Assembly: GCA_025455065.1 (NCBI GenBank)
Contig: JALONG010000021.1
Location: 1-64,000, forward strand
DNA from: Candidatus Kapaibacterium sp.
GTDB taxonomy: Bacteria > Bacteroidota > Ignavibacteria > Kapaibacteriales > UBA4661
DNA: 64,000 nucleotides
Direction: 5' to 3'
Part shown: in pieces, positions 6,396 to 48,229 of the stretch
Layout of the letters: each line of letters opens with the position of its first letter
How positions within the stretch are numbered: the stretch's first letter is position 1
Translations under genes and position numbers: made by a program
Notes under the pieces: generated by a model
What the model was told of the DNA's origin: nothing
What the model saw: the letters and a program-made list of their open reading frames with translations, nothing else
The model's database searches: none

Positions 6396-8597
6396 TCACA
6401 ATGCAGCAGGCAATTTCACGACAAACATCGCTCCTTGACCAAGTTCGGACTCGCACCAAATCTCGCCATGCATGGCTTCCACTAATTTTTTGACAATGGA
6501 CAACCCTAAGCCCGTTGAGTGTTCGCCTGCTGTCGGTCGAGCGGAAAGACGAGCGAATTTCCCGAAGAGTTTGCTTTTGTCCTCTTCCGACAAGCCCGGA
6601 CCTTCGTCGCGGACAAGAATAAAGACCGAAGGCATTGCGGAAGAATGGCTGTAAGCCGCATTGGTACTTGGTTCGTGAGCGGTTGTCAAATTCACGTGAA
6701 CATTCTTGTTTGCCGGAGAAAACTTAATCGCATTAGAAAGCAGATTTTCCACGACCTGCAATATACGGTGTTTGTCCGCTAAGGCGCATAAATGCTCGCT
6801 CTCTGCGGCAAAATGCACCATAATATTTTTCGCAGCCGCTTTTTGTCCGTAATCCTGCGCTAAGTGGCGAATGTCCTCTGCAAGCGGCACAGATTCTATG
6901 CGCAATTCCAATTTTCCCGACTCAATCGCATTGGAATCCAAGAGTTTTTCGATAATGTCGTGCATCCGCCGCGAAGTGCTTTCAATACGGTCTAAAATTT
7001 CGTTACGCTTGTCTCCATCAAGTTTTTCGGCATAGCGCCGCATCATGGAGGTATTCATAATGATAGTCTGAAGCGGATTTTTCAAATCATGCGCAGCAAC
7101 GCCCAGAAACTCGTTTTTCTCACGGTTCAGCCCTTCCAAAAGGATATTTTTTTCGTTCAATTCCACATTCGTCATTTCGATTTCGACCGCCTGATTGTTC
7201 AAAATAATCATCTGGCGCTGCATCTCGTTGTTGGTCAATTCGAGTTCGTTGGTGCGCTCCTGCACTTTGCGCTCAAGCTGTGTCTTTGCCTCGTGTTCGA
7301 TGCGCAGCGCGTCTTGCTGTGCGGTTTCTTTTTCCAAACGCAACTGCCTGTACCGCTCCGCCAATGCAAAGGCAAACAGCAAGCCCTCCACAGCCAAGCC
7401 AATTTCAACAATATGATTCGTAAACGGCGTACTTGGCAGAATACCGACGGTTTTTAAGACAAAAATGATATTTCCCGTTAAAAAGAGCGATACCGCCACA
7501 AAAAAGTACCGCGCACTGGTGTTGCCCCGCTTCCACACAAGCGCTCCGGCAACAACGACAACCGAAATCGTGATAAAATTCGCAACCACGCCAAGCCGAA
7601 CCCCAACTTGATAGGGCAGCACTATTGCCAAAAGCGACACCGCCGCGCCGCCGAGCATTGTTACCAATAAAGCCTTTGCCATGAAAGGCGCATAACGCTT
7701 GGTGCGGAGGAACTCTCTGGCAAAAAGCGACAGGCAAAAGATGATAAGCCCGATTGTTCCGGCGTTCAGGTAATTGACAAAACGCGGCGAATCGCTCCAA
7801 AAATACTGCGACGCAAAACCGTTCAATACTGCCAAATAGAGCGTTCCGGCAAGGACATAGAGCGTGTAGAGCGCATAAAACGGTGATTGCAGGCTGACAA
7901 ACAAAAAGCCGTTGTAAAGCGCCAAAGCAATCATCGCTCCGAAAAACAGTCCGTAGGCAATGCTCCCAAGCGCCGTATTTTCCGCAAACTCCGTGCTGTG
8001 CCGAAGCACCATCGGCACGAGCATTGAACTTTGCGAATTGACACGAAGAATGATGAGATGCGCCAAGGTATCGTGAAGTTCGAGCGGAAAAGCAAATGTG
8101 CGGGTTTGAACAATACGCTCAGAAAACGGCATTAAATCACCAACCACACGCGATGACCACACACCCGCGCTGTCATGGGTGAAAATTTCAATGCTGTCAA
8201 GCGGCGGATAGGCTATTTCCAAAAGCCAATCATCAACACGCGGCACGGTGTTTTTGACCTTCAGCACAAACCAATACGTCGGCTGAACAAGCCCAAAACT
8301 CGGTATTTCCTGTGTGGAAGCACGGAAGCCAGATGCAATCTGCGGTTGAAGGATGTCCTTGAGTGTGAGGTTTTTTGCGGTATCTGCAAGGTAATAGCAC
8401 AATAAGCCTGCCGAAACAGCCGGTTTTTTCGGCGTGAGCGCAATAACGGGCGTTGCGGGGAATATCGCTTGCGGTGCAAGTATTGGTGAGCCTTTCAAAG
8501 AAGCATCGTTGCCAACAGGCATAGAATCAGCCCTTGCAACCCCCAAAGTGGCGGCAACGCAGCAAAACCGAAGAATCACACAAACAAAGCCTCGCAT
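6396..8597 (-). CDS. 7TMR-DISM sensor histidine kinase
   Basis: A 733-residue membrane histidine kinase. The start MRGFVCVILRF gives a good signal peptide; an upstream reading adds 22 unlikely residues. Order: extracellular 7TMR-DISM domain (about 60-195, LLEIAYPPLDSIEIF), seven membrane helices (about 215-425), coiled coil (about 430-500), HisKA with the phospho-acceptor in GVAAHDLKNPLQ, then HATPase_c with N box VVENLLSNAIKFSP, G1 RDEGPGL and G2 STGLGLSIVKKL. No receiver domain is attached and no response regulator gene is adjacent, so its partner is unknown. The N-terminal half is paralogous to the cyclase at 2307-4493. Confidence 0.92.
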   Translation of the reverse strand: MRGFVCVILRFCCVAATLGVARADSMPVGNDASLKGSPILAPQAIFPATPVIALTPKKPAVSAGLLCYYLADTAKNLTLKDILQPQIASGFRASTQEIPSFGLVQPTYWFVLKVKNTVPRVDDWLLEIAYPPLDSIEIFTHDSAGVWSSRVVGDLMPFSERIVQTRTFAFPLELHDTLAHLIILRVNSQSSMLVPMVLRHSTEFAENTALGSIAYGLFFGAMIALALYNGFLFVSLQSPFYALYTLYVLAGTLYLAVLNGFASQYFWSDSPRFVNYLNAGTIGLIIFCLSLFAREFLRTKRYAPFMAKALLVTMLGGAAVSLLAIVLPYQVGVRLGVVANFITISVVVVAGALVWKRGNTSARYFFVAVSLFLTGNIIFVLKTVGILPSTPFTNHIVEIGLAVEGLLFAFALAERYRQLRLEKETAQQDALRIEHEAKTQLERKVQERTNELELTNNEMQRQMIILNNQAVEIEMTNVELNEKNILLEGLNREKNEFLGVAAHDLKNPLQTIIMNTSMMRRYAEKLDGDKRNEILDRIESTSRRMHDIIEKLLDSNAIESGKLELRIESVPLAEDIRHLAQDYGQKAAAKNIMVHFAAESEHLCALADKHRILQVVENLLSNAIKFSPANKNVHVNLTTAHEPSTNAAYSHSSAMPSVFILVRDEGPGLSEEDKSKLFGKFARLSARPTAGEHSTGLGLSIVKKLVEAMHGEIWCESELGQGAMFVVKLPAAL

Positions 8598-8694
8598 ACA
8601 ACAACGTTCAAATGTGGAAACACGAAATTTCACAATTCTACGCACAACGCACGAGATTACCAAGCATTTTGCTAACTGGTAAGCCCTTTCGAGA

Positions 8695-8990
8695 ATAATT
8701 GTCCACGAATCGCACGAATCCTCACCAATAACGATAAAAATAAAGTAACTGTTGAGGTCACAAATTTTTGACGCAGATTTCCATGATTCAACAGATTTTC
8801 ATGATTGTACAAGTACAAACTACAACCCGAAAACTATCCCGAAAGCCGCTCAAAATCAGCGTAGTCAGTTTAATCATGATAATCTGCGTCGAAGAGCTAA
8901 ATAATTAAAAAAATAAAATTGTTACTCAAACCAAACAATGAGTGCTGCGCTGGGATTCGTGTTAATTCGCGTGATTCGTGGATAAATTTT
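8695..8990. repeat. Family C inverted-repeat element, interrupted by a family B element
   Basis: The left arm TTGTCCACGAATCGCACGAAT (about 8699-8719) is answered by the right arm CGCGTGATTCGTGGATAA (about 8968-8985). The same arms, only about 95 bp apart end to end, occur at 51490-51584. Here they are pushed apart by a complete family B element (8745-8925), so this looks like an element inserted within an element. The gap between the kinase and adk genes holds nothing else except the adk terminator. Confidence 0.75.
8745..8925 (-). repeat. MITE-like element family B, copy 1 (nested)
   Basis: About 181 bp with termini GTAACTGTT and GTTAC and subterminal inverted repeats GACGCAGATTTCCATGATT / AATCATGATAATCTGCGTC. 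Inverted relative to the copies at 9709-9872 and 56220-56384, with an A/T-rich expansion of about 16 bp near one end. Non-coding. Confidence 0.85.
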
Positions 8991-35151: not shown

Positions 35152-36276
35152 TCACTTTGTAGCCTTACTTGCAATCTCCCCAAACAGCGCACGAAATCTG
35201 GGCAGAAATGTGTCAAACGACGGATATTGCTTACGATTGCGCTCATATTCCCCCAAAAGCCCCACCACATCTCGCATCCAGAAGAATCCTGCTTTGTCTT
35301 GTTGTGCAAAATTTTTCTCCACCATGCCGCGAAATTCCTTGCTTTGCATATTGTAGCGGATGCTCACCGCTCTGACAAGTGATTCATAGACAAGATATTG
35401 CGGATTGCCGTAAAATGTGTTTTTCATTTTTTCAAACACCGCCGGAATCGCCAGAAGCCGCACAGCATGAGGCTTCAGAGCCGTACTGTCCATGTCGGCA
35501 AGGTGATTGGCGTAGCAGTGAATGACTTCGTGCAGCATGAGTTGGGTAATCATCGTGTCGTTCAGACGAGTAGGGAAGCCGTTTTGGTCGAATGTTTCGG
35601 CTGCATAAATCGTCGCGGTATGACGGCGACTTTTGTCAAAGTTTACCCGCAAATACGAGCCTTCGCGGATTCCTAAAGCAAGAATGGGAAAATGTTCTTC
35701 GGTTGGTTTTGTGCCGAAAAAGTCCCGAACCCAGCGTGGTTGCAAGGCGGAATGATTCTTACGATAGTGTGCTTCAATGCGTTTGTAATAGGGCATTTGC
35801 GCCGCAAAGAAATCTTCAGCACGGGCTTCATCGTAAAATTGATTCAGTAATTTGACTGTTTCGGGCGTAAGCAGCGCACGATTATCCCAACCGTCCAAGA
35901 CCTCTAAAGGCGCATCAAACCTCACCAGTGAGGAACAACGCGGCATCGGCGACAAATGCACCGCCAACGACGGAATTTCCCACGCGCTGATGTTGCCGTT
36001 GATTGTTTCCAAACTGTCAATAGCAGCCCGAAAATGGCGTAAAAACTGGTGTTCACGGTATGGTGCAAAGTGCTTGTTGATTGCACGAGCGTAGTTCGTA
36101 TTGACAGAATCGGGCACTGCACCTGACTTAGCGAGATGATAAGCGATGGTCAAAAACTCCACGCGCTTGTCAATGCGTGGAATCATCGGCTGTTCAGGAG
36201 TTTGCGCCCTGCTTGCTGCCACAAAGCAACAAAGATTGAGCGCAAGGAATAATGCGGCGTACAGCATTCTTTTCAT
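35152..36276 (-). CDS. DUF4932-like exported putative metalloprotease
   Basis: A 374-residue secreted protein. The ATG at 36276 starts a signal peptide (MKRMLYAALFLALNLCCFVA, cleavage near SRAQ). An HEXXH zincin motif, HEVIH, is at about residues 249-253, followed by a conserved YANHLADMD. The rest (SLAVHLSPMPRCSSLV, FGTKPTEEHFPILALGI) resembles DUF4932 proteins, which are suspected metallopeptidases. Its start codon shares one base with the stop of the GNAT gene (TGATG), so the genes are translationally coupled. Substrate unknown. Confidence 0.75.
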   Translation of the reverse strand: MKRMLYAALFLALNLCCFVAASRAQTPEQPMIPRIDKRVEFLTIAYHLAKSGAVPDSVNTNYARAINKHFAPYREHQFLRHFRAAIDSLETINGNISAWEIPSLAVHLSPMPRCSSLVRFDAPLEVLDGWDNRALLTPETVKLLNQFYDEARAEDFFAAQMPYYKRIEAHYRKNHSALQPRWVRDFFGTKPTEEHFPILALGIREGSYLRVNFDKSRRHTATIYAAETFDQNGFPTRLNDTMITQLMLHEVIHCYANHLADMDSTALKPHAVRLLAIPAVFEKMKNTFYGNPQYLVYESLVRAVSIRYNMQSKEFRGMVEKNFAQQDKAGFFWMRDVVGLLGEYERNRKQYPSFDTFLPRFRALFGEIASKATK

Positions 36277-36761
36277 CACGGTTGAGTGTTGATATTGGTT
36301 TGAATAAATTCCGCAGGAGCAAGATACAACCGACATTTTGCCTTAGAACTCGCACCAATGCGTTGATAAAACGCGATTGCCCGCTCGTTCCAATCCGGCG
36401 TGTGCCATTGAATTTGCTCCAAACCCAGCACTTGTGCGAGTTGTACGACCTGCTGCATGAGCAATTCACCAATACCTCTGCTTCTCGCGTGTGAGCGCAC
36501 ATAAAGACAATCCATATTCAGATAATATGCGGCATCCCACGTTGAAAATTCTTGCATCACTGTCGTATAACCGACGATTTCATCGGCTCTTTGGGCAACG
36601 AAGCAATACAAACGCGGATGCTCACCGAATAAATATTGTGCAAGTTTTTCCGCCTTGCCTTCGGCGGAATAGCTTGCTTTTTCGTATTCGGCGTGTTCGA
36701 CGCAAAGCCTGATGATTTCTTCGATGTCTTGGGGCAAAGCGAGGCGGATGATAGCGGTCAT
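36276..36761 (-). CDS. GNAT family N-acetyltransferase
   Basis: A 161-residue acetyltransferase of the GNAT fold. Starting at MTAIIRLALPQDIEEI (the ATG at 36761; the upstream codon is TTG). Acetyl-CoA binding is expected at the beta-4/alpha-3 region LYVRSHARSRGIGELLMQQVV, whose RSRGIG matches the Q/RxxGxG/A motif. The C-terminal AIAFYQRIGASSKAKC is the usual GNAT ending. Substrate unknown. The stop overlaps the DUF4932-like gene start. Confidence 0.9.
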   Translation of the reverse strand: MTAIIRLALPQDIEEIIRLCVEHAEYEKASYSAEGKAEKLAQYLFGEHPRLYCFVAQRADEIVGYTTVMQEFSTWDAAYYLNMDCLYVRSHARSRGIGELLMQQVVQLAQVLGLEQIQWHTPDWNERAIAFYQRIGASSKAKCRLYLAPAEFIQTNINTQP

Positions 36762-36926
36762 AATAGTCAAGAATAGGTAGAATTTTTGAAAAAGAAAATG
36801 CTTCGATGGCAGAGAGCCAAAGCAGGCTGGATGAAAGAATACGACGTAAAGATACCAGAGAATTCACGATATATGAAGCCAAGTTAAAGACATTTTGAGC
36901 CAAAGCTGCAAACGCATCTGCTTCTA

Positions 36927-38371: not shown

Positions 38372-38866
38372 TCAAACATCGTCGTTGAAAGAAGCGTTCA
38401 AATAGCCCTCTACATCTGGCTTTCCAGCTTGTTTCAAAATGTGTTCCACCCACGCTTCGCGCTCAAACCATATCACCGCTAATTCCCACACACACGTCAT
38501 CATGCCGCCGCCGGAGAAAAGCGTGAATTCATCGGGCTTGGCGAAGGTGGAAAGATAAACGTGGTTTTGGAGCATATTCTCGTCAATCCACCAGTTGATG
38601 ATAGCGAAATAGCCTTCTTTGCCTTCATGCAAAATCAAGGTGGCGATGTTGTAGGTTTGAAGCGCATAGTTGCGGCTTTCAGCCAGCCATACGGGAAGGT
38701 GCTTTTTGGCGTGTTCGAGAAGCGCTGCCATGTCGCTGGGCTGGAACTCGCTTCGCACCGAGATTCCGTAGAGTTTTATTTGCCACGTGCCATTCTGAGC
38801 GTCGCTATGCGTGTGAATGCCCAGAAACCTGATGGGGCGCGGCTTGTAGGGGTGGAGGATAGTCAT
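38372..38866 (-). CDS. Hypothetical protein, whose 5' end is duplicated nearby
   Basis: A 164-residue protein without a recognised family. It starts MTILHPYKPRPIRFLGIHTH, and has an aromatic/acidic C-terminal half (FAIINWWIDENMLQNHVYL, ELAVIWFEREAWVEHILKQAG). No signal peptide or membrane segment. A 115-bp copy of its 5' end lies at 40025-40139 in the same orientation, with 3 differences, and the two-gene operon at 39021-39904 lies between the copies. It converges with the LysR gene (14-bp gap). Confidence 0.75.
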   Translation of the reverse strand: MTILHPYKPRPIRFLGIHTHSDAQNGTWQIKLYGISVRSEFQPSDMAALLEHAKKHLPVWLAESRNYALQTYNIATLILHEGKEGYFAIINWWIDENMLQNHVYLSTFAKPDEFTLFSGGGMMTCVWELAVIWFEREAWVEHILKQAGKPDVEGYLNASFNDDV

Positions 38867-39020
38867 GGAATTCAAAAGTGCAAAATGGTAAAAACTTGTA
38901 TCTTGATAGATTTTTTCGTAATTTTTGTACGATGACTGTGTTGCTATGAACCAAGCAATGGTGAAGCCTCAAACGGTTTTATAGCACCAAATTTTTCTCT
39001 TTATCATTATCATTTCTACG

Positions 39021-39281
39021 GTGATTTGTATGGCTAAAACAGGTGCTTCTTCCGATTTAGCAGCAGAATTTCGCAAAGCTGCAATGACCAATCATGGTTA
39101 TATTCATGTTGTTCCAAGTAAGAGCGGCTGGTCTGTTAAAAAAGAAGGCTCTCTTAAATCCAGTGCAGTGAGAAAGACAAAAGAAGAAGCCGTACAAGTC
39201 GCTCGTAATCTACAATCTGGGACAAGAATTATTGTTCACAAAAAAGATGGTACAATTCATACCAATACCGCAAAAAAATGA
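39021..39281 (+). CDS. DUF2188 domain protein
   Basis: An 86-residue basic protein. Residues about 22-83 match DUF2188 (HVVPSKSGWSVKKEGSLKSSAVRKTKEEAVQVARNL...RIIVHKKDGTIHT), a small alpha/beta fold. The N-terminal 20 residues (MAKTGASSDLAAEFRKAAMTN) are alpha-helical and polar. Its stop overlaps the next gene by 4 bp (ATGA), so the two are translationally coupled. The pair is A/T-rich compared with flanking genes and lies between 115-bp direct repeats. It may be a partner, sensor or inhibitor of the next product; that is inferred from the pairing only. Confidence 0.85.
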   Translation: MICMAKTGASSDLAAEFRKAAMTNHGYIHVVPSKSGWSVKKEGSLKSSAVRKTKEEAVQVARNLQSGTRIIVHKKDGTIHTNTAKK

Positions 39282-39904
39282 TGCACTCAGAGAATGTCTT
39301 CATCAACTGTCCATTTGACAACGACTATTTTCCATTACTCAAATCATTGCTTTTTACCCTTATTTATCTTGATTTCAAGCCAAAAATTTCTGAGACACGA
39401 GATTCTGGTGAAATTCGCCTCAAAAAAATACAACAACTTATGTCTGTATCGCAATACTCAATTCATGACCTATCACGTATGGATCCCATCAAGAAGAAAG
39501 AGTATCCGCGCTTTAATATGCCTTTTGAATGTGGTATTGACTTTGGTCTGAAGATGTCTGATGAAGCAAAGTATGGTGAGAAAAAATTCTTGATTCTCGA
39601 AAAAGAAGCTCACCGTTATCAAAAAGTAATTTCCGATATTTCTGGCAATGATATTTATGCTCATCATAACGAGTCGGAGCAAATTGTCAAAGCCGTACGC
39701 GATTGGTTTCGTACCATGAACGATAATGTGGAAGACTATAAGACAATTTGGCTTGCCTACAATGAATTTACGGTATTTTATCAGCAAATTCTTACTCAAA
39801 AAGGGCATAATCCCAACGACATTCATGCCCTTACGTTTAGTGATATTATCACTTCTATGCAGAATTGGACACAAGTAAAAAAAGAGAATTATTCTTCAAA
39901 ATAA
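39278..39904 (+). CDS. TIR/nucleoside-deoxyribosyltransferase-like putative effector
   Basis: A 208-residue cytosolic protein of a family usually annotated as hypothetical. The opening VFINCPFDNDY (7-17), DSGEIR (42-47), SQYSIHDLSR (58-67), RFNMPFECGIDFG (78-90) and KKFLILEK (102-109) follow the order seen in the TIR/nucleoside-deoxyribosyltransferase (DRHyd-like) fold. Glu 84 in the MPFECG segment lies where these enzymes keep a catalytic Glu. A C-terminal alpha-helical extension (about 130-208) is extra. NAD- or nucleotide-cleaving activity is possible by analogy with TIR defence effectors; nothing here proves it. Double ATG start; 4-bp overlap with the DUF2188 gene. Possible DNA-defence role. 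Confidence 0.7.
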   Translation: MMHSENVFINCPFDNDYFPLLKSLLFTLIYLDFKPKISETRDSGEIRLKKIQQLMSVSQYSIHDLSRMDPIKKKEYPRFNMPFECGIDFGLKMSDEAKYGEKKFLILEKEAHRYQKVISDISGNDIYAHHNESEQIVKAVRDWFRTMNDNVEDYKTIWLAYNEFTVFYQQILTQKGHNPNDIHALTFSDIITSMQNWTQVKKENYSSK

Positions 39905-40024
39905 TTCATTACTTCCCTCCCTGCCCCTTCTTCGCCGTCTCCTTAAACTGAGCCTCATATCCCTTCCGTGCCGTAAATTCGCCATTGCTTATTGCAGTGT
40001 TTCCGATGTTGAGCTAAAATCCGT

Positions 40025-40139
40025 TTCGCACCGAGATTCCGTAGAGTTTTATTTGCCACGTGCCATTCTGAGCGTCGCTGTGCGTGTGAATGCCCAGAAA
40101 CCTGATGGGACGAGGCTTGTAGGGGTGGAGGATAGTCAT
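40025..40139 (-). pseudogene. Duplicated 5' fragment of the 38372-38866 gene
   Basis: 115 bp matching 38752-38866 with three differences, encoding the first 38 residues (MTILHPYKPRPIRFLGIHTH...) and then stopping within three residues (NGF, stop). An in-frame extension runs into 15-bp GGTCATT repeats at 40137-40187. It is read as a truncated copy, not a functional gene. Confidence 0.85.
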
Positions 40140-40201: not shown

Positions 40202-40786
40202 TCATTCCTCCCTCCTGTACTCCATATACTTCGCCGTACCCCGCGCCACATCTTCTCCGCAGAGTATTTCCACCACGTGAAACGACAAATCAATTCCTGC
40301 CGAAATCCCACCGGAGGTGAATATTTTTCCCGCTTGCACAAATCGCTTTTCCGGCTGCGGAACGCCTAATGGTGCGATTTCTGCGAGATGCGGATACACT
40401 TCGTGATGTGTGCAATACGGCTTGCCATCCAGCAAACCCAACGCGCCCAGTAACCGTGCGCCGGAGTAGATAGAAAGCGTGAGTTCGGTGTTCTCCGTCG
40501 TTGTTTTGATCCACGACAAAACCTCTACATCCCCCATCACAGCTCGTGTTCCAGAGCCACCGGCAATAATCAGAATGTCCACTTTGGGGCAGGACGCAAA
40601 ATCCGCATCGGGATTCACCGACAAGCCATTGACCGCACGGACAGGTTTCTTGTCTTTTGCTACGGTAAAAACGTTGAAAAGCTCGTGATTACTGAGTTCA
40701 GAGGTAACAGAGAATACTTCAAAAGGTCCGGCGAAATCCAGAACCTCCGCGTCGTCGAAAATGAAAATGGCGATGTTTTTTTTCAT
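40202..40786 (-). CDS. DJ-1/PfpI family protein lacking the nucleophile Cys
   Basis: A 194-residue DJ-1/PfpI protein, close to the N-terminal domain of GlxA-type regulators and isonitrile hydratases. AIFIFDDAEVLDFAGPFEVF (6-25) and ILIIAGGSGT are conserved. The nucleophile elbow, normally SVCTGALLL, reads LSIYSGARLLGALGLLDGK: Tyr 107 replaces Cys. Enzyme activity of the usual kind is therefore unlikely; a binding or regulatory role is possible. Divergent from the AraC gene at 40917. Downstream lie the 15-bp repeats and the truncated gene copy. Confidence 0.85.
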   Translation of the reverse strand: MKKNIAIFIFDDAEVLDFAGPFEVFSVTSELSNHELFNVFTVAKDKKPVRAVNGLSVNPDADFASCPKVDILIIAGGSGTRAVMGDVEVLSWIKTTTENTELTLSIYSGARLLGALGLLDGKPYCTHHEVYPHLAEIAPLGVPQPEKRFVQAGKIFTSGGISAGIDLSFHVVEILCGEDVARGTAKYMEYRREE

Positions 40787-42259: not shown

Positions 42260-44977
42260 CTATTTCTTTTTGACTGCTTGCTTAAACTGCTCCTCAAACT
42301 GCCCCAACGCCGTCATCGCATTCGCGTCATCCTTGAGTTTCGCCTTGGTGAGCGCGAAAGCCTCGTCGCCACGCGGGTCGGCGAGAGTGGAGATAAGCAG
42401 AATCGTGTTAAAAATGTCGTTCATATCGTCGTCGGCAATCGCTTTTTTGAGGCAGTCCAGCGCGAAAGGATAGGCGGAATCAGCCTTGCCGAGCGCGACG
42501 AGCGTTTCTGCGGCTGCTATGCGATAATCCCAAATCGGCACGGCAAGCGTCCAGCGCGGCGAAGCAAGGTCTTTGAACGCAGTAAGGGCAAGCTCCACGC
42601 CGCGTGGGTCTTTCAGTGCCTTCAAACCGTTCAGTGTGCTTATCAGGCTTTGATTTTTCCACGATGGTTTGTCCTTCAATTTCACCAGCGCGTCGAAGGC
42701 TTTGGGGCTTTTGCACTTACCAAGCGCATTTGCGGCAGCGTTCACAACGCGGTCGCTTTCGTTTGTCAGAAAACCAATGTAGAGGTCGGCAAATTTTGGG
42801 TCGCAGGTAAGTCCCAGAAAGTTGATAGCAGCAGCCCGCGTCCAGGCTTTCTCGTTTTTGATGACCGTTAAAAGCATGGAAATCGTCGCGTCGTCGAACC
42901 GAACCGCTTCACTTTTTGTCGGAGGTGCAGACGGCGACAGGGCAGACAGAGAGCCGGGCGCAAGCAGACCTTGCAAACCCAGAATAGCCATATATTTCAA
43001 TCGCCAATAGGATTTTCCCGTTGCCACTGCTCTGAATCCCGCATAAATACGCTCTTTGTCGGCACTCGTCGTTTTTTCATTTTTTGCCAGTTTGGAAAGT
43101 TCACCCATTGCCCAGCGTCTGCCTGTGATGTCGTTGTCGTTTTGCAGTTGATACAAGAGTTCGTCCAGCGATTTTTCAAACGTGATTTCCTTCAACCACG
43201 CATTTTCGTAATCCACATTCACCAGCTTTGGTGCGGCTTCGGCGGCAAAGGTGAAGGTGTTTTCCGCTTTGGGTTCTAGCCAAACCGTTTCCACGCGCCC
43301 GTCCAGTTCGATTGCCATTTTGCCCTGAAAATACGCCGTTTGCGGGTACGCGCTTGCGCTGTCGCGGGTTTGGGTTTGTTTGAGTGAAAGCGTCAATCGC
43401 TTGGAAGCCTCATCATAGCTTTTGTTCACGACAAATTTCGGATGACCGATGCCATAAATCCACTGGTCGAAAAACCAATCTAACGGCTCACCTGCCGCAT
43501 CCTCACAGGCTTTGCGGAAATCTTCGGTCGTTACTTGTTTACCTGTGTTTGCTTTTGCATAGCCCTGAATCACCTGCCACCACTTGCGTTCACCAAGTTG
43601 CTGCCGTAGCGTATTTAGCATCACTGCGCCGCGAAAATACGTGAAATTATCCGTTGCAATCGCCTGTGCGCTTTCGTAATGCTTCGTTACAACGGGGCGA
43701 CGCAAGCCGCCATTCCAATCGCCGAAAGTGCTGCCAAGCGAGAAAACACCGTGGTTGTAGAGCAGAAATTCCTCGCGTCCGTTTTTGTATTCGCAGTAAA
43801 GATTTGAGAAATACAGCGAGAATGCGCGATGCAGCCAAATATCACTCCAATCCCGCACGGTGATTGCGTTTCCGAACCACTGATGCGCCAGAGCCTCGCC
43901 TTCAAGCCAGTCCCAGAGGTAGAGAAAATCGGCGTGTGTGCCGAAATCGTCAATCATATTTTCCGAAAGTGTAGAAGTGCCTATTCCCGCCATTCCCCAA
44001 GGAAGGTCGTGCGCAACGACTTGATTGTATGCGGCAAAGGGATATTTCACGCCCGTTTTTTCGCTAAAAAATTTCACCATATCCGCCAAACGCTCGGTAC
44101 TTGCTTCGGTTGCGGCTTTTTCGTCGGGGAAACCGTAGGTGTGCAACTCTATCTTGCCTTGCGTGCCAAGCGAGGCTGTACGCGGGATGTCGAGAAATTC
44201 CCCAACGGCAATGGAGGTTTGGTAATTCGCGTGTGGCGTGTCCATTTTCCAGTGAAAAGTGCGTGTTCCGTCAGCATTGGTAAGGGTTTCAAGAAGTTTA
44301 CCATTGGAAATAACCGAGAGTGGTTTGGGGACGGTTGCGGTTATTTCGCTTGTGCGCGTGTCGCCCAAATCGTCGTAGCCGGGAAACCAATAGCGATTTG
44401 AGTTCAACTCCGCCATAGACCAGCAATGGCGGCGTTTGCGAGGCTCGACGGATGTTTTGTCGTAGAACCGCAAGCCTTTTCCCGTACTTCCGCCCAAGCT
44501 GTTCGGGTCGGGGATATTCACCCAATTTGTGTGGTAATCAATCGTGAGCGTAATGTCTTCGCCCTCAGCAATGGTGCGGTTTGCGTAGATTTTGAGGTTG
44601 TTGTTTTTGTCGGAGTTTTCGTAGTCGAATTTCAGAGATTTCCCATCAGAAAGCGTGATGGCATTGATGGTCATCATGGCTGCATCCAGCGTGATTGCTT
44701 GCGTTGCGGAGACAGGAGAAAGCGGCGCAAGCGTAATTTTTGCCGTACCGAAAGCCTGTTTTTTTTGCCAATCAAAACGGAGATTGAGCGCAATGTGTTT
44801 CACATCAAGGGTGCGGGCGCGTTGCCACTGGGTAGGTGGGAGCGTGGGCGGAAGTTTTTTTGCGGTGCTGTCGCTTTGCTGTCCAAAAACTTGTTGTCCA
44901 AAGACTTGCTGCGCAGAAAGTTGTTCGCAGAAAAGGACACACAAAAGCATGAGAAGAAGTCGTTGGTGGAAACGCAT
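42260..44977 (-). CDS. M1 aminopeptidase homologue without a zinc site (pseudo-enzyme)
   Basis: A 905-residue exported protein of the M1 aminopeptidase family. A signal peptide (to about 22), a short repeated QQVFGQ tract and a beta-sandwich domain (about 55-255) precede the thermolysin-like domain (about 260-560). The HEXXH motif reads GEALAH (360-365): the first His is Gly. The third ligand, normally in WLNEGF, reads WLHRAF (381-386), with Arg for Glu. The GAMEN exopeptidase motif is PWGMAGIG. The fold is recognisable (AHQWFGN, YFRGAVMLNTLRQQLG), and a helical HEAT-like C-terminal domain (about 610-890) is intact. Probably non-catalytic, perhaps a binding or scaffold protein. Confidence 0.85.
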   Translation of the reverse strand: MRFHQRLLLMLLCVLFCEQLSAQQVFGQQVFGQQSDSTAKKLPPTLPPTQWQRARTLDVKHIALNLRFDWQKKQAFGTAKITLAPLSPVSATQAITLDAAMMTINAITLSDGKSLKFDYENSDKNNNLKIYANRTIAEGEDITLTIDYHTNWVNIPDPNSLGGSTGKGLRFYDKTSVEPRKRRHCWSMAELNSNRYWFPGYDDLGDTRTSEITATVPKPLSVISNGKLLETLTNADGTRTFHWKMDTPHANYQTSIAVGEFLDIPRTASLGTQGKIELHTYGFPDEKAATEASTERLADMVKFFSEKTGVKYPFAAYNQVVAHDLPWGMAGIGTSTLSENMIDDFGTHADFLYLWDWLEGEALAHQWFGNAITVRDWSDIWLHRAFSLYFSNLYCEYKNGREEFLLYNHGVFSLGSTFGDWNGGLRRPVVTKHYESAQAIATDNFTYFRGAVMLNTLRQQLGERKWWQVIQGYAKANTGKQVTTEDFRKACEDAAGEPLDWFFDQWIYGIGHPKFVVNKSYDEASKRLTLSLKQTQTRDSASAYPQTAYFQGKMAIELDGRVETVWLEPKAENTFTFAAEAAPKLVNVDYENAWLKEITFEKSLDELLYQLQNDNDITGRRWAMGELSKLAKNEKTTSADKERIYAGFRAVATGKSYWRLKYMAILGLQGLLAPGSLSALSPSAPPTKSEAVRFDDATISMLLTVIKNEKAWTRAAAINFLGLTCDPKFADLYIGFLTNESDRVVNAAANALGKCKSPKAFDALVKLKDKPSWKNQSLISTLNGLKALKDPRGVELALTAFKDLASPRWTLAVPIWDYRIAAAETLVALGKADSAYPFALDCLKKAIADDDMNDIFNTILLISTLADPRGDEAFALTKAKLKDDANAMTALGQFEEQFKQAVKKK

Positions 44978-45117: not shown

Positions 45118-46113
45118 CTATCGAAATTGCTTGATGTACTCCTCAATATCATGTTGAATTTTTTGGTACAGGAAGCACTGGCGAAAGTCTGTATTCATGT
45201 CAAGTACGCCCTCTACTGTTTTTGTTTTTCGTTGATTTCTATACTCTTGCACTCTCTGATTTCCTTCTTCCGTAGTCGTACCTTCCTGTAAGGATGCAGA
45301 TTTTGCCCGTACAAGCCGCAAAAACACCTCTTTGAGCATCATCAGCACAACATTGTTTTTCAAGGTATGACCTTGCATGAACAAATACGTTGATGCTGGG
45401 ATGTAGCCTAGCGCCTGCATTTCTGCCTGCAACGTTTTCACTTCATTAGCTTCATTCGGAAATCTTGTACGAAGTTCCGCTACCTTTTTATCCACGCGGC
45501 TTTTTAGATTACTCAATGCTTCTTTGCATTGCTGCTCAACGTCAGGAGTGCTTGGAAAGCCGATAATGCTATTGCAGTCCGAAAGCGAGAAATGGTAAGG
45601 CTTGCCAGTGCTTTGAAAATATATCACCCATGACAATACATCATAAACAATCGCCGAGTATTGTTCCAGAACAGCAACAAAATCAAGGCGAACATCATCA
45701 TTCAATGTCGCTTGAACACAGACTTGGTGAAGGCTCTGGGCGTAGCACTGGTAATTTTCGATGGAGTATGCGTAGGTATGAAAAATATAAGGATGCGTCA
45801 GAACAAGATGGGAAGTGGGAGTTTTCCCATTCAAGAGAAAATCGAAATCACTATCAACACAAAGAATAAGAAATTTTCCTGCTTGGTCTTGAAGGTCGAG
45901 AACTGAGATTTTACCAGTGTTGGAAGGCTGTGTAATGCGAAAGCGGATATTTGCTGTATGCTCGTATTGCTGCAAGGTGGTACGCCAAAATGCAATGTCC
46001 TCATGCCCTTCCACAAACACTTGCACTTCAGGCGATAGCGATGTACTGCGTTTGGCATTCGCAGCCTGCAAATACCTTGAGTTGAGGTTTTGAACAATGT
46101 TGCCTTTTTGCAT
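45118..46113 (-). CDS. DUF4435 (TOPRIM-like) protein, AriB-like
   Basis: A 331-residue DUF4435 protein. VFVEGHEDIAFW (33-44) and LCVDSDFDFLL (84-94) give the acidic Glu and DxD of a TOPRIM-like nuclease centre; YSIENYQCYA (116-125) is the third conserved block. It follows the AAA ATPase gene by 3 bp. This ATPase-then-DUF4435 order is that of the AriA-AriB pair of PARIS anti-phage systems, in which AriB is the toxic nuclease held by AriA. AAA + DUF4435 pairs of other kinds exist, so 'PARIS' is inferred. The intergenic ATG is clear. Confidence 0.85.
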   Translation of the reverse strand: MQKGNIVQNLNSRYLQAANAKRSTSLSPEVQVFVEGHEDIAFWRTTLQQYEHTANIRFRITQPSNTGKISVLDLQDQAGKFLILCVDSDFDFLLNGKTPTSHLVLTHPYIFHTYAYSIENYQCYAQSLHQVCVQATLNDDVRLDFVAVLEQYSAIVYDVLSWVIYFQSTGKPYHFSLSDCNSIIGFPSTPDVEQQCKEALSNLKSRVDKKVAELRTRFPNEANEVKTLQAEMQALGYIPASTYLFMQGHTLKNNVVLMMLKEVFLRLVRAKSASLQEGTTTEEGNQRVQEYRNQRKTKTVEGVLDMNTDFRQCFLYQKIQHDIEEYIKQFR

Positions 46114-46116
46114 TCA

Positions 46117-47142
46117 TTACCCCGCTTTTACGACAATATCGTGTGCCTTGGGCTTCAATATATCGTGCATATCGGTAACTTTATCCAGCCAGCCGTCCAT
46201 GATAATTGCGGGTGAATGTGTAGCGATAATCAACTGAGCATTGGGATTCAATTCCCGTAAAAAGCCGATACACTGGCGCTCCCAGTCAAAATGCAGGGAT
46301 AGTTCCGGCTCATCAAGCATGAGGATTGCAGGCTTTTGATGTTGCAAAAGCACCGTTAAAAGAATCACGAGCAGGTGCTTTTCCCCTGATGAAAGCTGGT
46401 ATGCAGACAAGATTTTATCGCCACTTTGGAACGTAATTTCATTGCTTGCACGGTGTACTTTTTTTTCACTGGAAGCGAAAAGCGTGTCGAGAATATCTAA
46501 AAAACGATTGAATGTTTTTCGTACTTCACGGGCTTCCGAAGCAGCATTCGCGCCATTGTGTGTTAAAATTTGCTCAACTTCTTTTGACAAGTTTACTTGA
46601 AAATTCAGATACTCTTTTTGCAGCAATGCTATTTGCAGGTCTAATTCTGTGTGAACGCCGTCTTCTTTGAGTTTTTGAATAGTTTCTGTGGTGTTAAAAT
46701 CGTTGTCGAGGACGTGGATTAAATCAACAAAGACCAATATTCCTTCATTTGTCAATATGGCACTTACCCTGTCAAAAGCAAGCACTTGCATTTTTTTTCC
46801 CTGCCAATAATCGGCTTCAACTTCAGGGGTCAGAAGTTTATTTTTTGCCAAAAAGTCCTGTATATCTTCTACATTTTTCTTCTCAAGAATTCGCTCTATC
46901 CACGCTTCATCGTTATCAAAAGTGATGCGCAATCGTTGAATTTTATCAATATGCCTTGATGGTGGCGTGTCGTCTAAATGCCCCTGCAACAAACTATACA
47001 CACACTGCAACACCGTAGATTTTCCACTCCCGTTCACGCCGGAAAGGATATTTACATCGGGATTGAGATTCCATTCAAGGTCGTATTTATCCCACAGACC
47101 ATTGATGATAATTTTGGAAATAAAGTGGACAGGAGCTGCCAT
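46117..47142 (-). CDS. ABC/SMC-type AAA ATPase, AriA-like
   Basis: A 341-residue ABC/AAA_15-type ATPase. The start MAAPVHFISKIIINGLW follows a consensus promoter; a longer in-frame reading overlaps the GlxA-type gene and was rejected. Walker A is GVNGSGKST (35-43), the ABC signature LSSGEK (250-255), Walker B ILMLDEPE (273-280) and the switch His in THSPAI (309-314). A coiled-coil insert of about 100 residues lies in between. Likely the sensor/holder half of a PARIS-like anti-phage pair with the DUF4435 gene 3 bp downstream. Confidence 0.87.
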   Translation of the reverse strand: MAAPVHFISKIIINGLWDKYDLEWNLNPDVNILSGVNGSGKSTVLQCVYSLLQGHLDDTPPSRHIDKIQRLRITFDNDEAWIERILEKKNVEDIQDFLAKNKLLTPEVEADYWQGKKMQVLAFDRVSAILTNEGILVFVDLIHVLDNDFNTTETIQKLKEDGVHTELDLQIALLQKEYLNFQVNLSKEVEQILTHNGANAASEAREVRKTFNRFLDILDTLFASSEKKVHRASNEITFQSGDKILSAYQLSSGEKHLLVILLTVLLQHQKPAILMLDEPELSLHFDWERQCIGFLRELNPNAQLIIATHSPAIIMDGWLDKVTDMHDILKPKAHDIVVKAG

Positions 47143-47175
47143 AGTGAGTAGTAAAAAGTGGCAAAAAACAAGATG

Positions 47176-47207
47176 CAAAGCTACAAACATCTTATCAATC
47201 AGACAAA
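47176..47207 (-). promoter_or_regulatory. Consensus -33/-7 promoter of the AAA/DUF4435 operon
   Basis: On the minus strand, TTTG (47204-47207), 20 bp, TAGCTTTG (47176-47183). It lies 34 bp before the AAA start codon and just past the GlxA-type gene stop codon at 47223, so the operon has its own promoter. Confidence 0.65.
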
Positions 47208-47222
47208 CACGAGTCAAAGCGG

Positions 47223-48149
47223 CTATTTCTCCCGCGCTATCAGTCGTGCAACGTGCCGTTCGCTCCGTAAGCCACACTGCTGCGCGATTTCCGCCTTCGA
47301 GATATTGGGATTTTTGAGAAGTTTTTCGATGCGCTCTTTGCGCAACAGCGTGATGTATTCGTTCACCGTAACTCCGGTCTCTTGCTTGAAAATGCGCGTT
47401 AGTGAGCGGGAACTCATACACGCAATTTCGGCTAACTCTTCCAGCGTGGATTTTTGGTGAAGGTTGTGTTGAAGCCAATCTTGGACGGCATGAACTCCGG
47501 CGTGGATATGATTGCGATATGCCATAAAAACGCTTTGTTGCGCTTGATGTGCAGAGCGGCGCGTATAAACAACAATCTCCCGCGCGACTTGGAAGGATGT
47601 GTAATCATTCGTTAGTTTTCCCACGATATGCAGCGCCAAATCTATCCCCGATGCGACACCGGCACTGGTAAAAATTCCGTCATCTTCGGTAAACAGGATA
47701 TTTTCTTGCACTTCGGCACTCAAAAAACGTTCCTGTAACTCACGAACCCGCTTCCAGTGCGTCGTGCAGCGTTTTCCCGCCAGTAATCCCACTTCACCGA
47801 GAAAAAATGCACCTGTGCAGACCGAACAGATATTCACACCCTTGGCATATTGCTCACGAACCCAGCGAAAAAGCGGCTTTTGCGCCCGAAATGCCTTCGA
47901 GGTAAGATACTTCATTTCTGCGCCCGGAATGATGAGGTAATCTCCGCGTTGAAGATTAAGGTCGTGATAGGGGCGCAGTACGCCAAAGGGCAGATGCTGT
48001 GAGGTGTGCAGGTCGTCCGTAAAAGAGCAGTACCGCACGTCTAGCGGCGCACCATAATCACGCGCTTCGAGAAAAACTTGGTCGGGACCGGCTAAATCAA
48101 GCAAATGCGTGTGTGGCAAAATGAGAAAAACAATCTGGACAGTGCGCAT
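47223..48149 (-). CDS. GlxA family transcriptional regulator (DJ-1 + AraC)
   Basis: A 308-residue regulator with an N-terminal DJ-1/PfpI domain (about 1-185) and a C-terminal AraC helix-turn-helix (about 205-308). The start MRTVQIVFLILPHTHLLDLAG was chosen. The nucleophile elbow CSVCTGAFFL is intact, unlike the DJ-1 protein at 40202-40786. HTH segments are LAEIACMSSRSLTRIFKQETG and ISKAEIAQQCGLRSERHVARL. Such proteins (FtrA/GlxA type) usually act as activators of nearby catabolic or oxidative-stress genes; the target is unknown. Upstream is a 16-bp tandem repeat at 48166-48213. Confidence 0.9.
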   Translation of the reverse strand: MRTVQIVFLILPHTHLLDLAGPDQVFLEARDYGAPLDVRYCSFTDDLHTSQHLPFGVLRPYHDLNLQRGDYLIIPGAEMKYLTSKAFRAQKPLFRWVREQYAKGVNICSVCTGAFFLGEVGLLAGKRCTTHWKRVRELQERFLSAEVQENILFTEDDGIFTSAGVASGIDLALHIVGKLTNDYTSFQVAREIVVYTRRSAHQAQQSVFMAYRNHIHAGVHAVQDWLQHNLHQKSTLEELAEIACMSSRSLTRIFKQETGVTVNEYITLLRKERIEKLLKNPNISKAEIAQQCGLRSERHVARLIAREK

Positions 48150-48165
48150 ATTGTGAGCCTTTTGA

Positions 48166-48229
48166 GTTTCAATACCGATGTGTTTCAATACCGATGTGTT
48201 TCAATACCGATGTGTTTTAATACCAAATA
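48166..48229. repeat. 16-bp tandem repeat upstream of the GlxA-type gene
   Basis: Three perfect copies of GTTTCAATACCGATGT (48166-48213), then a degenerate fourth (GTTTTAATACCAAATA). It lies immediately upstream of the GlxA-type gene, so it could affect its expression or be an array of binding sites. Confidence 0.9.

Follow-up and report, generated by a model that had tools for sequence, protein, structure and literature searches.

The window analyzed here, which is the whole 64,000-nucleotide stretch of Candidatus Kapaibacterium sp. DNA, contains an open reading frame (positions 42260 to 44977, minus strand) encoding a homolog of the M1 aminopeptidases, referred to here as pseudo-M1 (pM1). 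The protein keeps the M1 fold but has lost the zinc site and the catalytic base. It belongs to a group of homologs of one origin, is under purifying selection, and is linked to a recurring gene cassette. These features are best accounted for by an exported pseudo-aminopeptidase that probably serves as a binding or scaffold protein for a putative ligand. Genome annotation would label the proteins of this group as aminopeptidases, which is very likely wrong.

Loss of the zinc site from an intact M1 protein

The pM1 gene encodes 905 amino acids from ATG to stop with no internal stop codons, in agreement with the first-pass annotation, which had described the gene as full length and in frame. The product has an apparent signal peptide (about residues 1 to 23, putative and judged by eye), an M1 N-domain, a catalytic-type domain, an Ig-like domain, and a C-terminal HEAT-like domain, and it appears to be exported. 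Pfam matches cover residues 61 to 252 (Peptidase_M1_N), 295 to 506 (Peptidase_M1), and 701 to 774 (HEAT_2). The matches to the M1 domains (PF01433, E value of 1.2e-21; PF17900, E value of 7e-11) both pass the curated cutoffs and place the protein in family M1. An AlphaFold model built from a 48-row alignment shows a confident four-domain M1 fold (pLDDT 90.8, pTM 0.89), in which helices 354 to 364 and 381 to 399, the carriers of the zinc ligands in active enzymes, still form. The best Foldseek matches of this model, including PepN, IRAP, ERAP1, and the TFIID subunit TAF2, all have the M1 fold, with E values of about 1e-34 and TM scores of 0.6 to 0.7. An Rfam scan of the window gave no match.

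The catalytic positions were read off an alignment with 31 active sister enzymes, all of which keep HELxH, GGMEN, WLNESF, and the catalytic Tyr. In pM1, the zinc motif has become E361-A362-L363-A364-H365 (43883 to 43897, minus strand): the first His is replaced by Glu361 and the general-base Glu by Ala362, and the second His is retained as His365. Arg384 (43826 to 43828, minus strand) occupies the third zinc-ligand position, which is Glu in 31 of 31 sisters, so that WLNESF reads WLHRAF. The active M1 signature of HExxH with a third-ligand Glu at 18-residue spacing is therefore absent. GxMEN aligns to G328-M329-A330-G331 (43985 to 43996, minus strand), with Glu replaced by Ala330 and Asn by Gly331, and the exopeptidase motif is thus missing as well. 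In the YxxG motif, the catalytic Tyr persists as Tyr447. The Glu-to-Arg change in WLHRAF and the degenerate GAMEN region had both been recognized from the sequence beforehand. For HEXXH, the earlier reading had the right letters and rightly called the site degenerate, but its register was off, since the first His is replaced by Glu rather than Gly, the catalytic Glu is also replaced by Ala, and the second His is kept. A true zinc motif elsewhere in the protein, which would have undone that reading, was looked for and rejected, because a scan of the whole protein found neither an HxxxH motif nor a single HE dipeptide. Chance or sequencing error is excluded as the cause of the site loss, since the same losses, or equivalent ones, recur in relatives that were assembled independently. 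The GxMEN Glu contacts substrate N termini in active enzymes, and its loss argues against simple N-terminal peptide capture by pM1.

A single pseudo-M1 clade with graded losses

A search of 84,980 species genomes, together with relatives and phylum samples, identified at least 22 homologs with degenerate sites, including the window protein. They comprise members from Ignavibacteria (the window protein, L034, L035, and L039), Cytophagales-type genomes (L036, L042 to L045, and L169 to L171), Saprospiraceae (L037, L038, L041, and L055), Chitinophagales or Sphingobacteriia metagenome-assembled genomes (MAGs) (L046, L047, and L054), and Pyrinomonadaceae (L040, L139, and L150). The taxa of L169 to L171, L139, and L150 were assigned from their position in the tree or from the taxonomic order in which they were searched for; many of the source genomes are MAGs, in which single mis-binned contigs are possible. 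A signal-peptide-like N terminus was seen by eye in most complete members, with L139 unresolved. All 22 group as a single clade (SH-aLRT 100), which branches from within the intact Acidobacteriota enzymes. The same clade was recovered with the catalytic region (residues 318 to 460) removed, and a grouping driven by catalytic columns was thereby rejected. The losses first read in a single protein are thus shared by a conserved pseudo-enzyme clade. The pM1 gene is present in three of eight same-genus genomes searched, the window's own counted, and both this patchiness and the intermingling of phyla inside the clade point to horizontal transfer or to repeated loss. Of the active enzymes, the one closest to the clade in the tree is encoded by one of a tandem pair of active sister-type M1 genes on an Acidobacteria contig (L050).

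Six catalytic positions were scored across the clade, and the general-base Glu, absent in 22 of 22, is the only one lost by every member. The early-branching L039 retains the first His, the third-ligand Glu, and the GxMEN Glu, the last of which is lost in all other members. His365 is retained in the group of three that includes the window protein (the window trio) and in L036, and Tyr447 is retained in the trio but lost in the other members where the position aligns; most other members lack both. Since the general-base Glu is the only universal loss and the ligand remnants vary, the most parsimonious order would have catalysis lost first and the ligands eroding later, in a different way in each lineage. 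Nei-Gojobori dN/dS values of 0.13 to 0.20 in the window trio and of about 0.15 in two further pairs, representing three separate lineages, indicate purifying selection, as the first-pass annotation had supposed.

Clade-specific conserved residues

Columns that are invariant in the active sisters have been lost preferentially in the active site of the clade (28 of 48, versus 18 of 105 outside; Fisher P value of 8e-7). In addition, 34 clade-specific residues are nearly invariant: 7 lie in segment 337 to 357, and the HEAT-like domain holds 14. The helix of the dead zinc site is immediately preceded by the motif N340-M-I-D-D-F-G-T-H348-A-D-F-L-Y-L-W-D356 (43910 to 43960, minus strand), whose consensus, N-x-[IV]-D-D-x3-H-x-D-[FY]-x-Y-[LF]-W-D, is found in all 22 members. 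N340, D343, H348, Y353, W355, and D356 are invariant in 22 of 22, and D344 and D350 are conserved both in the clade and in the active sisters. A second clade-specific motif, R808-W809-x-L811-x4-W816-D817 (42527 to 42556, minus strand), lies in the HEAT-like domain, where W809, L811, and W816 occupy columns absent from the active sisters; the pattern [RH]-W-x-L...W-D is present in all 19 members that cover the region. Judged from the alignment, these residues look like a new functional surface.

Gene neighborhood and cassette

At 19 of the 22 pseudo loci, pM1 is accompanied on its own strand by one or more members of a cassette, which consists of a GlxA-type DJ-1/AraC regulator or DJ-1 protein, a protein of an uncharacterized family named YKPR, a GNAT acetyltransferase, a DinB-like protein, and a DUF4932 protein. 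The genes usually lie within a few kilobases of pM1, and in the window they reach up to about 6 kb downstream. The loci without the cassette are L040, L139, and L055, the last being cut by a contig end. The window, in which only DinB is absent, encodes on the minus strand the GlxA-type DJ-1/PfpI and AraC regulator (47223 to 48188), which in several relatives immediately precedes pM1; a DJ-1/PfpI protein (40202 to 40786), which belongs to the cassette in the trio from Ignavibacteria as well as in L036 and L039; the YKPR protein (38372 to 38875); the GNAT acetyltransferase (36276 to 36770); and the DUF4932 protein with an HEVIH motif (35152 to 36336), an occasional member also seen in L042 and L044. 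In L045, five genes stand in a row (GlxA-pM1-YKPR-GNAT-DinB), and L150, which came from the searches of Pyrinomonadales, carries YKPR, DinB, and pM1. No same-strand cassette member was found at 26 active-enzyme loci (425 kb), where only weak opposite-strand DinB matches occurred at two, and a background of 391 kb taken from genomes with pM1 contained none beyond weak matches; a chance neighborhood was rejected on these two comparisons. The pairwise distances of the cassette proteins also follow those of pM1 (Mantel r of 0.94 for GlxA, 0.71 for DinB, and 0.54 for YKPR), with 0 of 2,000 permutations as high.

The YKPR family (about 155 amino acids; L045 positions 8475 to 8936, the window protein, and relatives) has an invariant CVWE motif and no Pfam or PHROG match. 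Its predicted fold is mixed alpha/beta and confident (pLDDT 85), and a fold search against the PDB gave no match at an E value of ≤0.001; weak HPF/YfiA-like matches were not used. In a 395-genome phylum sample, YKPR occurred in three of five genomes with pM1 versus 6 of 390 others. YKPR, DinB, and GNAT are also found without pM1, and in two genomes lacking it (L206 and L207) their genes flank a different secreted protein of about 900 amino acids ("IDGxxxDDVW"), which suggests a cassette whose large partner can be exchanged, with pM1 perhaps being one such partner among several. The recurring cassette ties the uncharacterized YKPR family and DUF4932 to a common context.

Several other genes lie among those of the cassette in the window. 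A remnant of a second YKPR gene, corresponding to the N-terminal part, is located just downstream of the DJ-1 gene (40017 to 40139, minus strand). Between the GlxA regulator and pM1 (45118 to 47478, minus strand) there is a PARIS anti-phage pair, which consists of AriA (AAA ATPase) and AriB (DUF4435); it looks inserted into the cassette, because GlxA and pM1 adjoin in several relatives. On the plus strand (39027 to 39904), a gene for a DUF2188 protein, which matches the candidate defense family PDC-S16, overlaps a gene for an uncharacterized 208-amino-acid "VFINCPFDNDYFP" protein; in L035, this gene pair is found directly downstream of pM1, a different spot from that in the window.

Proposed function and alternative explanations

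The first-pass annotation had suggested peptide binding or a scaffold role; the conserved neighborhood, which it had not considered, adds a frame for the possible function. We propose that loss of the catalytic Glu came first and would have ended proteolysis, after which individual zinc ligands may have eroded differently in each lineage. The pocket mouth, formed by the new 340 to 356 segment, and the HEAT-like domain (W712, R743, K774, Q776, and RWxL...WD) may now bind a specific periplasmic partner or ligand, which would explain why the M1 fold has been kept. Control of the operon probably rests with the GlxA/DJ-1-AraC regulator, and pM1 may be made under it within a stress- or detoxification-type response. 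The DinB-like, GNAT, and YKPR proteins are predicted to be cytosolic and, since pM1 alone appears to have a signal peptide, would contribute to a common response without joining pM1 in a complex. Three points weigh against this proposal: export is predicted from a signal peptide called by eye, the new invariant Asp and His residues could form a new catalytic site instead of a binding site, and His365 and Tyr447, both retained in the window protein, would still allow weak or different metal binding. A broader proposal is more tentative and would, on balance, be doubtful as a whole: that the zinc peptidase site was swapped for a new functional site (NxxDDxxxHxDxxYLWD with the HEAT RWxL...WD) within a previously undescribed, horizontally spread GlxA-YKPR-GNAT-DinB stress/detoxification cassette in at least two phyla.

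Among the alternatives, the one that survives best, although it is unlikely, is that another catalytic or metal site built from N340, D343, D344, H348, D350, Y353, and D356, perhaps with R743, K774, W816, and D817 of the HEAT-like domain, replaces the zinc peptidase activity. Polar residues absent from the active sisters are strictly invariant beside the old pocket across lineages that are 37 to 55% identical to the window protein, which speaks for such a site. However, no known catalytic motif was recognized among them, and D344 and D350 are conserved in active enzymes as well, so that the cluster includes some inherited structure.

Somewhat more doubtful is a regulatory or decoy subunit paired with an active protease, either an M1 paralog or the DUF4932 protein of the cassette. 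Such pseudo-subunits are known in other metallopeptidase families, for example, the alpha subunit of mitochondrial processing peptidase (MPP) (PMC11266112). In addition, pM1 and an active sister coexist in two Pyrinomonadaceae genomes, and a DUF4932 gene lies near the pM1 genes of the window, L042, and L044. These are, however, only 3 of 22 pM1 genes, and the Bacteroidota hosts searched have no active sister, their next-best M1 proteins being at most 33% identical, and those in the window's own genome 22 to 35%, which weakens the case for such a subunit. The window's genome also encodes two M1-like proteins (L173 and L174) with a divergent HEVGHN(Y/F)FPM motif.

It is very improbable that pM1 remains a metallopeptidase that uses His365, Tyr447, and new residues as unusual ligands: the retention of His365 in the window trio and L036 and of Tyr in the trio would fit, but neither is kept by most other members, the general-base Glu is found in 0 of 22, and the GxMEN Glu survives only in L039. 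A decaying pseudogene, for which the lineage-specific variation of the zinc ligands, as expected under relaxed constraint, and the presence of the gene in few same-genus genomes could be cited, is the least probable and was rejected on the dN/dS values in three lineages and the full-length frames, with the clade-wide new invariants and the conserved neighborhood also opposing it. A phage or plasmid origin of pM1 was likewise rejected, as the best phage and plasmid matches are ordinary M1 proteins with ≤31% identity.

Comparison with active and non-catalytic M1 proteins

The active sister group of pM1 consists of the M1 aminopeptidases of Blastocatellia (Pyrinomonadales; e.g., L168, L141, and L048), which are about 40 to 45% identical to pM1, share its domain order, including the HEAT-like end, and enclose it in the tree. 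They differ in their intact catalytic sites, and they have neither the NxxDDxxxHxDxxYLWD motif nor the cassette. A single loss that can be traced, intact Pyrinomonadaceae sisters, graded site remnants, and a conserved operon make it possible to study in this clade, step by step, the passage from enzyme to non-enzyme.

TAF2 of eukaryotic TFIID has the M1 fold without peptidase function and is a nuclear scaffold in a transcription complex. It is the third-best Foldseek match to pM1 (7edx_B), but the Pfam TAF2_3rd match is not significant (E value of 0.22) and gives no specific sequence relationship; pM1 originated independently of TAF2, since it sits inside bacterial active enzymes. To our knowledge, the known non-catalytic M1 homologs, TAF2 and Tma108, are all eukaryotic. 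A literature search for a bacterial pseudo-M1, with most subscription papers outside its coverage, found only a pseudopeptidase review and no described bacterial clade. The MPP alpha subunit (M16B) is also a metallopeptidase homolog retained without zinc ligands (PMC11266112). It belongs to another family and fold, however, and is an obligate partner of an active subunit, with no sign of such a partner for pM1. In yeast, Tma108 is an M1 homolog that uses its substrate pocket for non-enzymatic binding of proteins (PMC11266112), and pM1 is set apart from it by the loss of the zinc site and by apparent export, as judged by eye.
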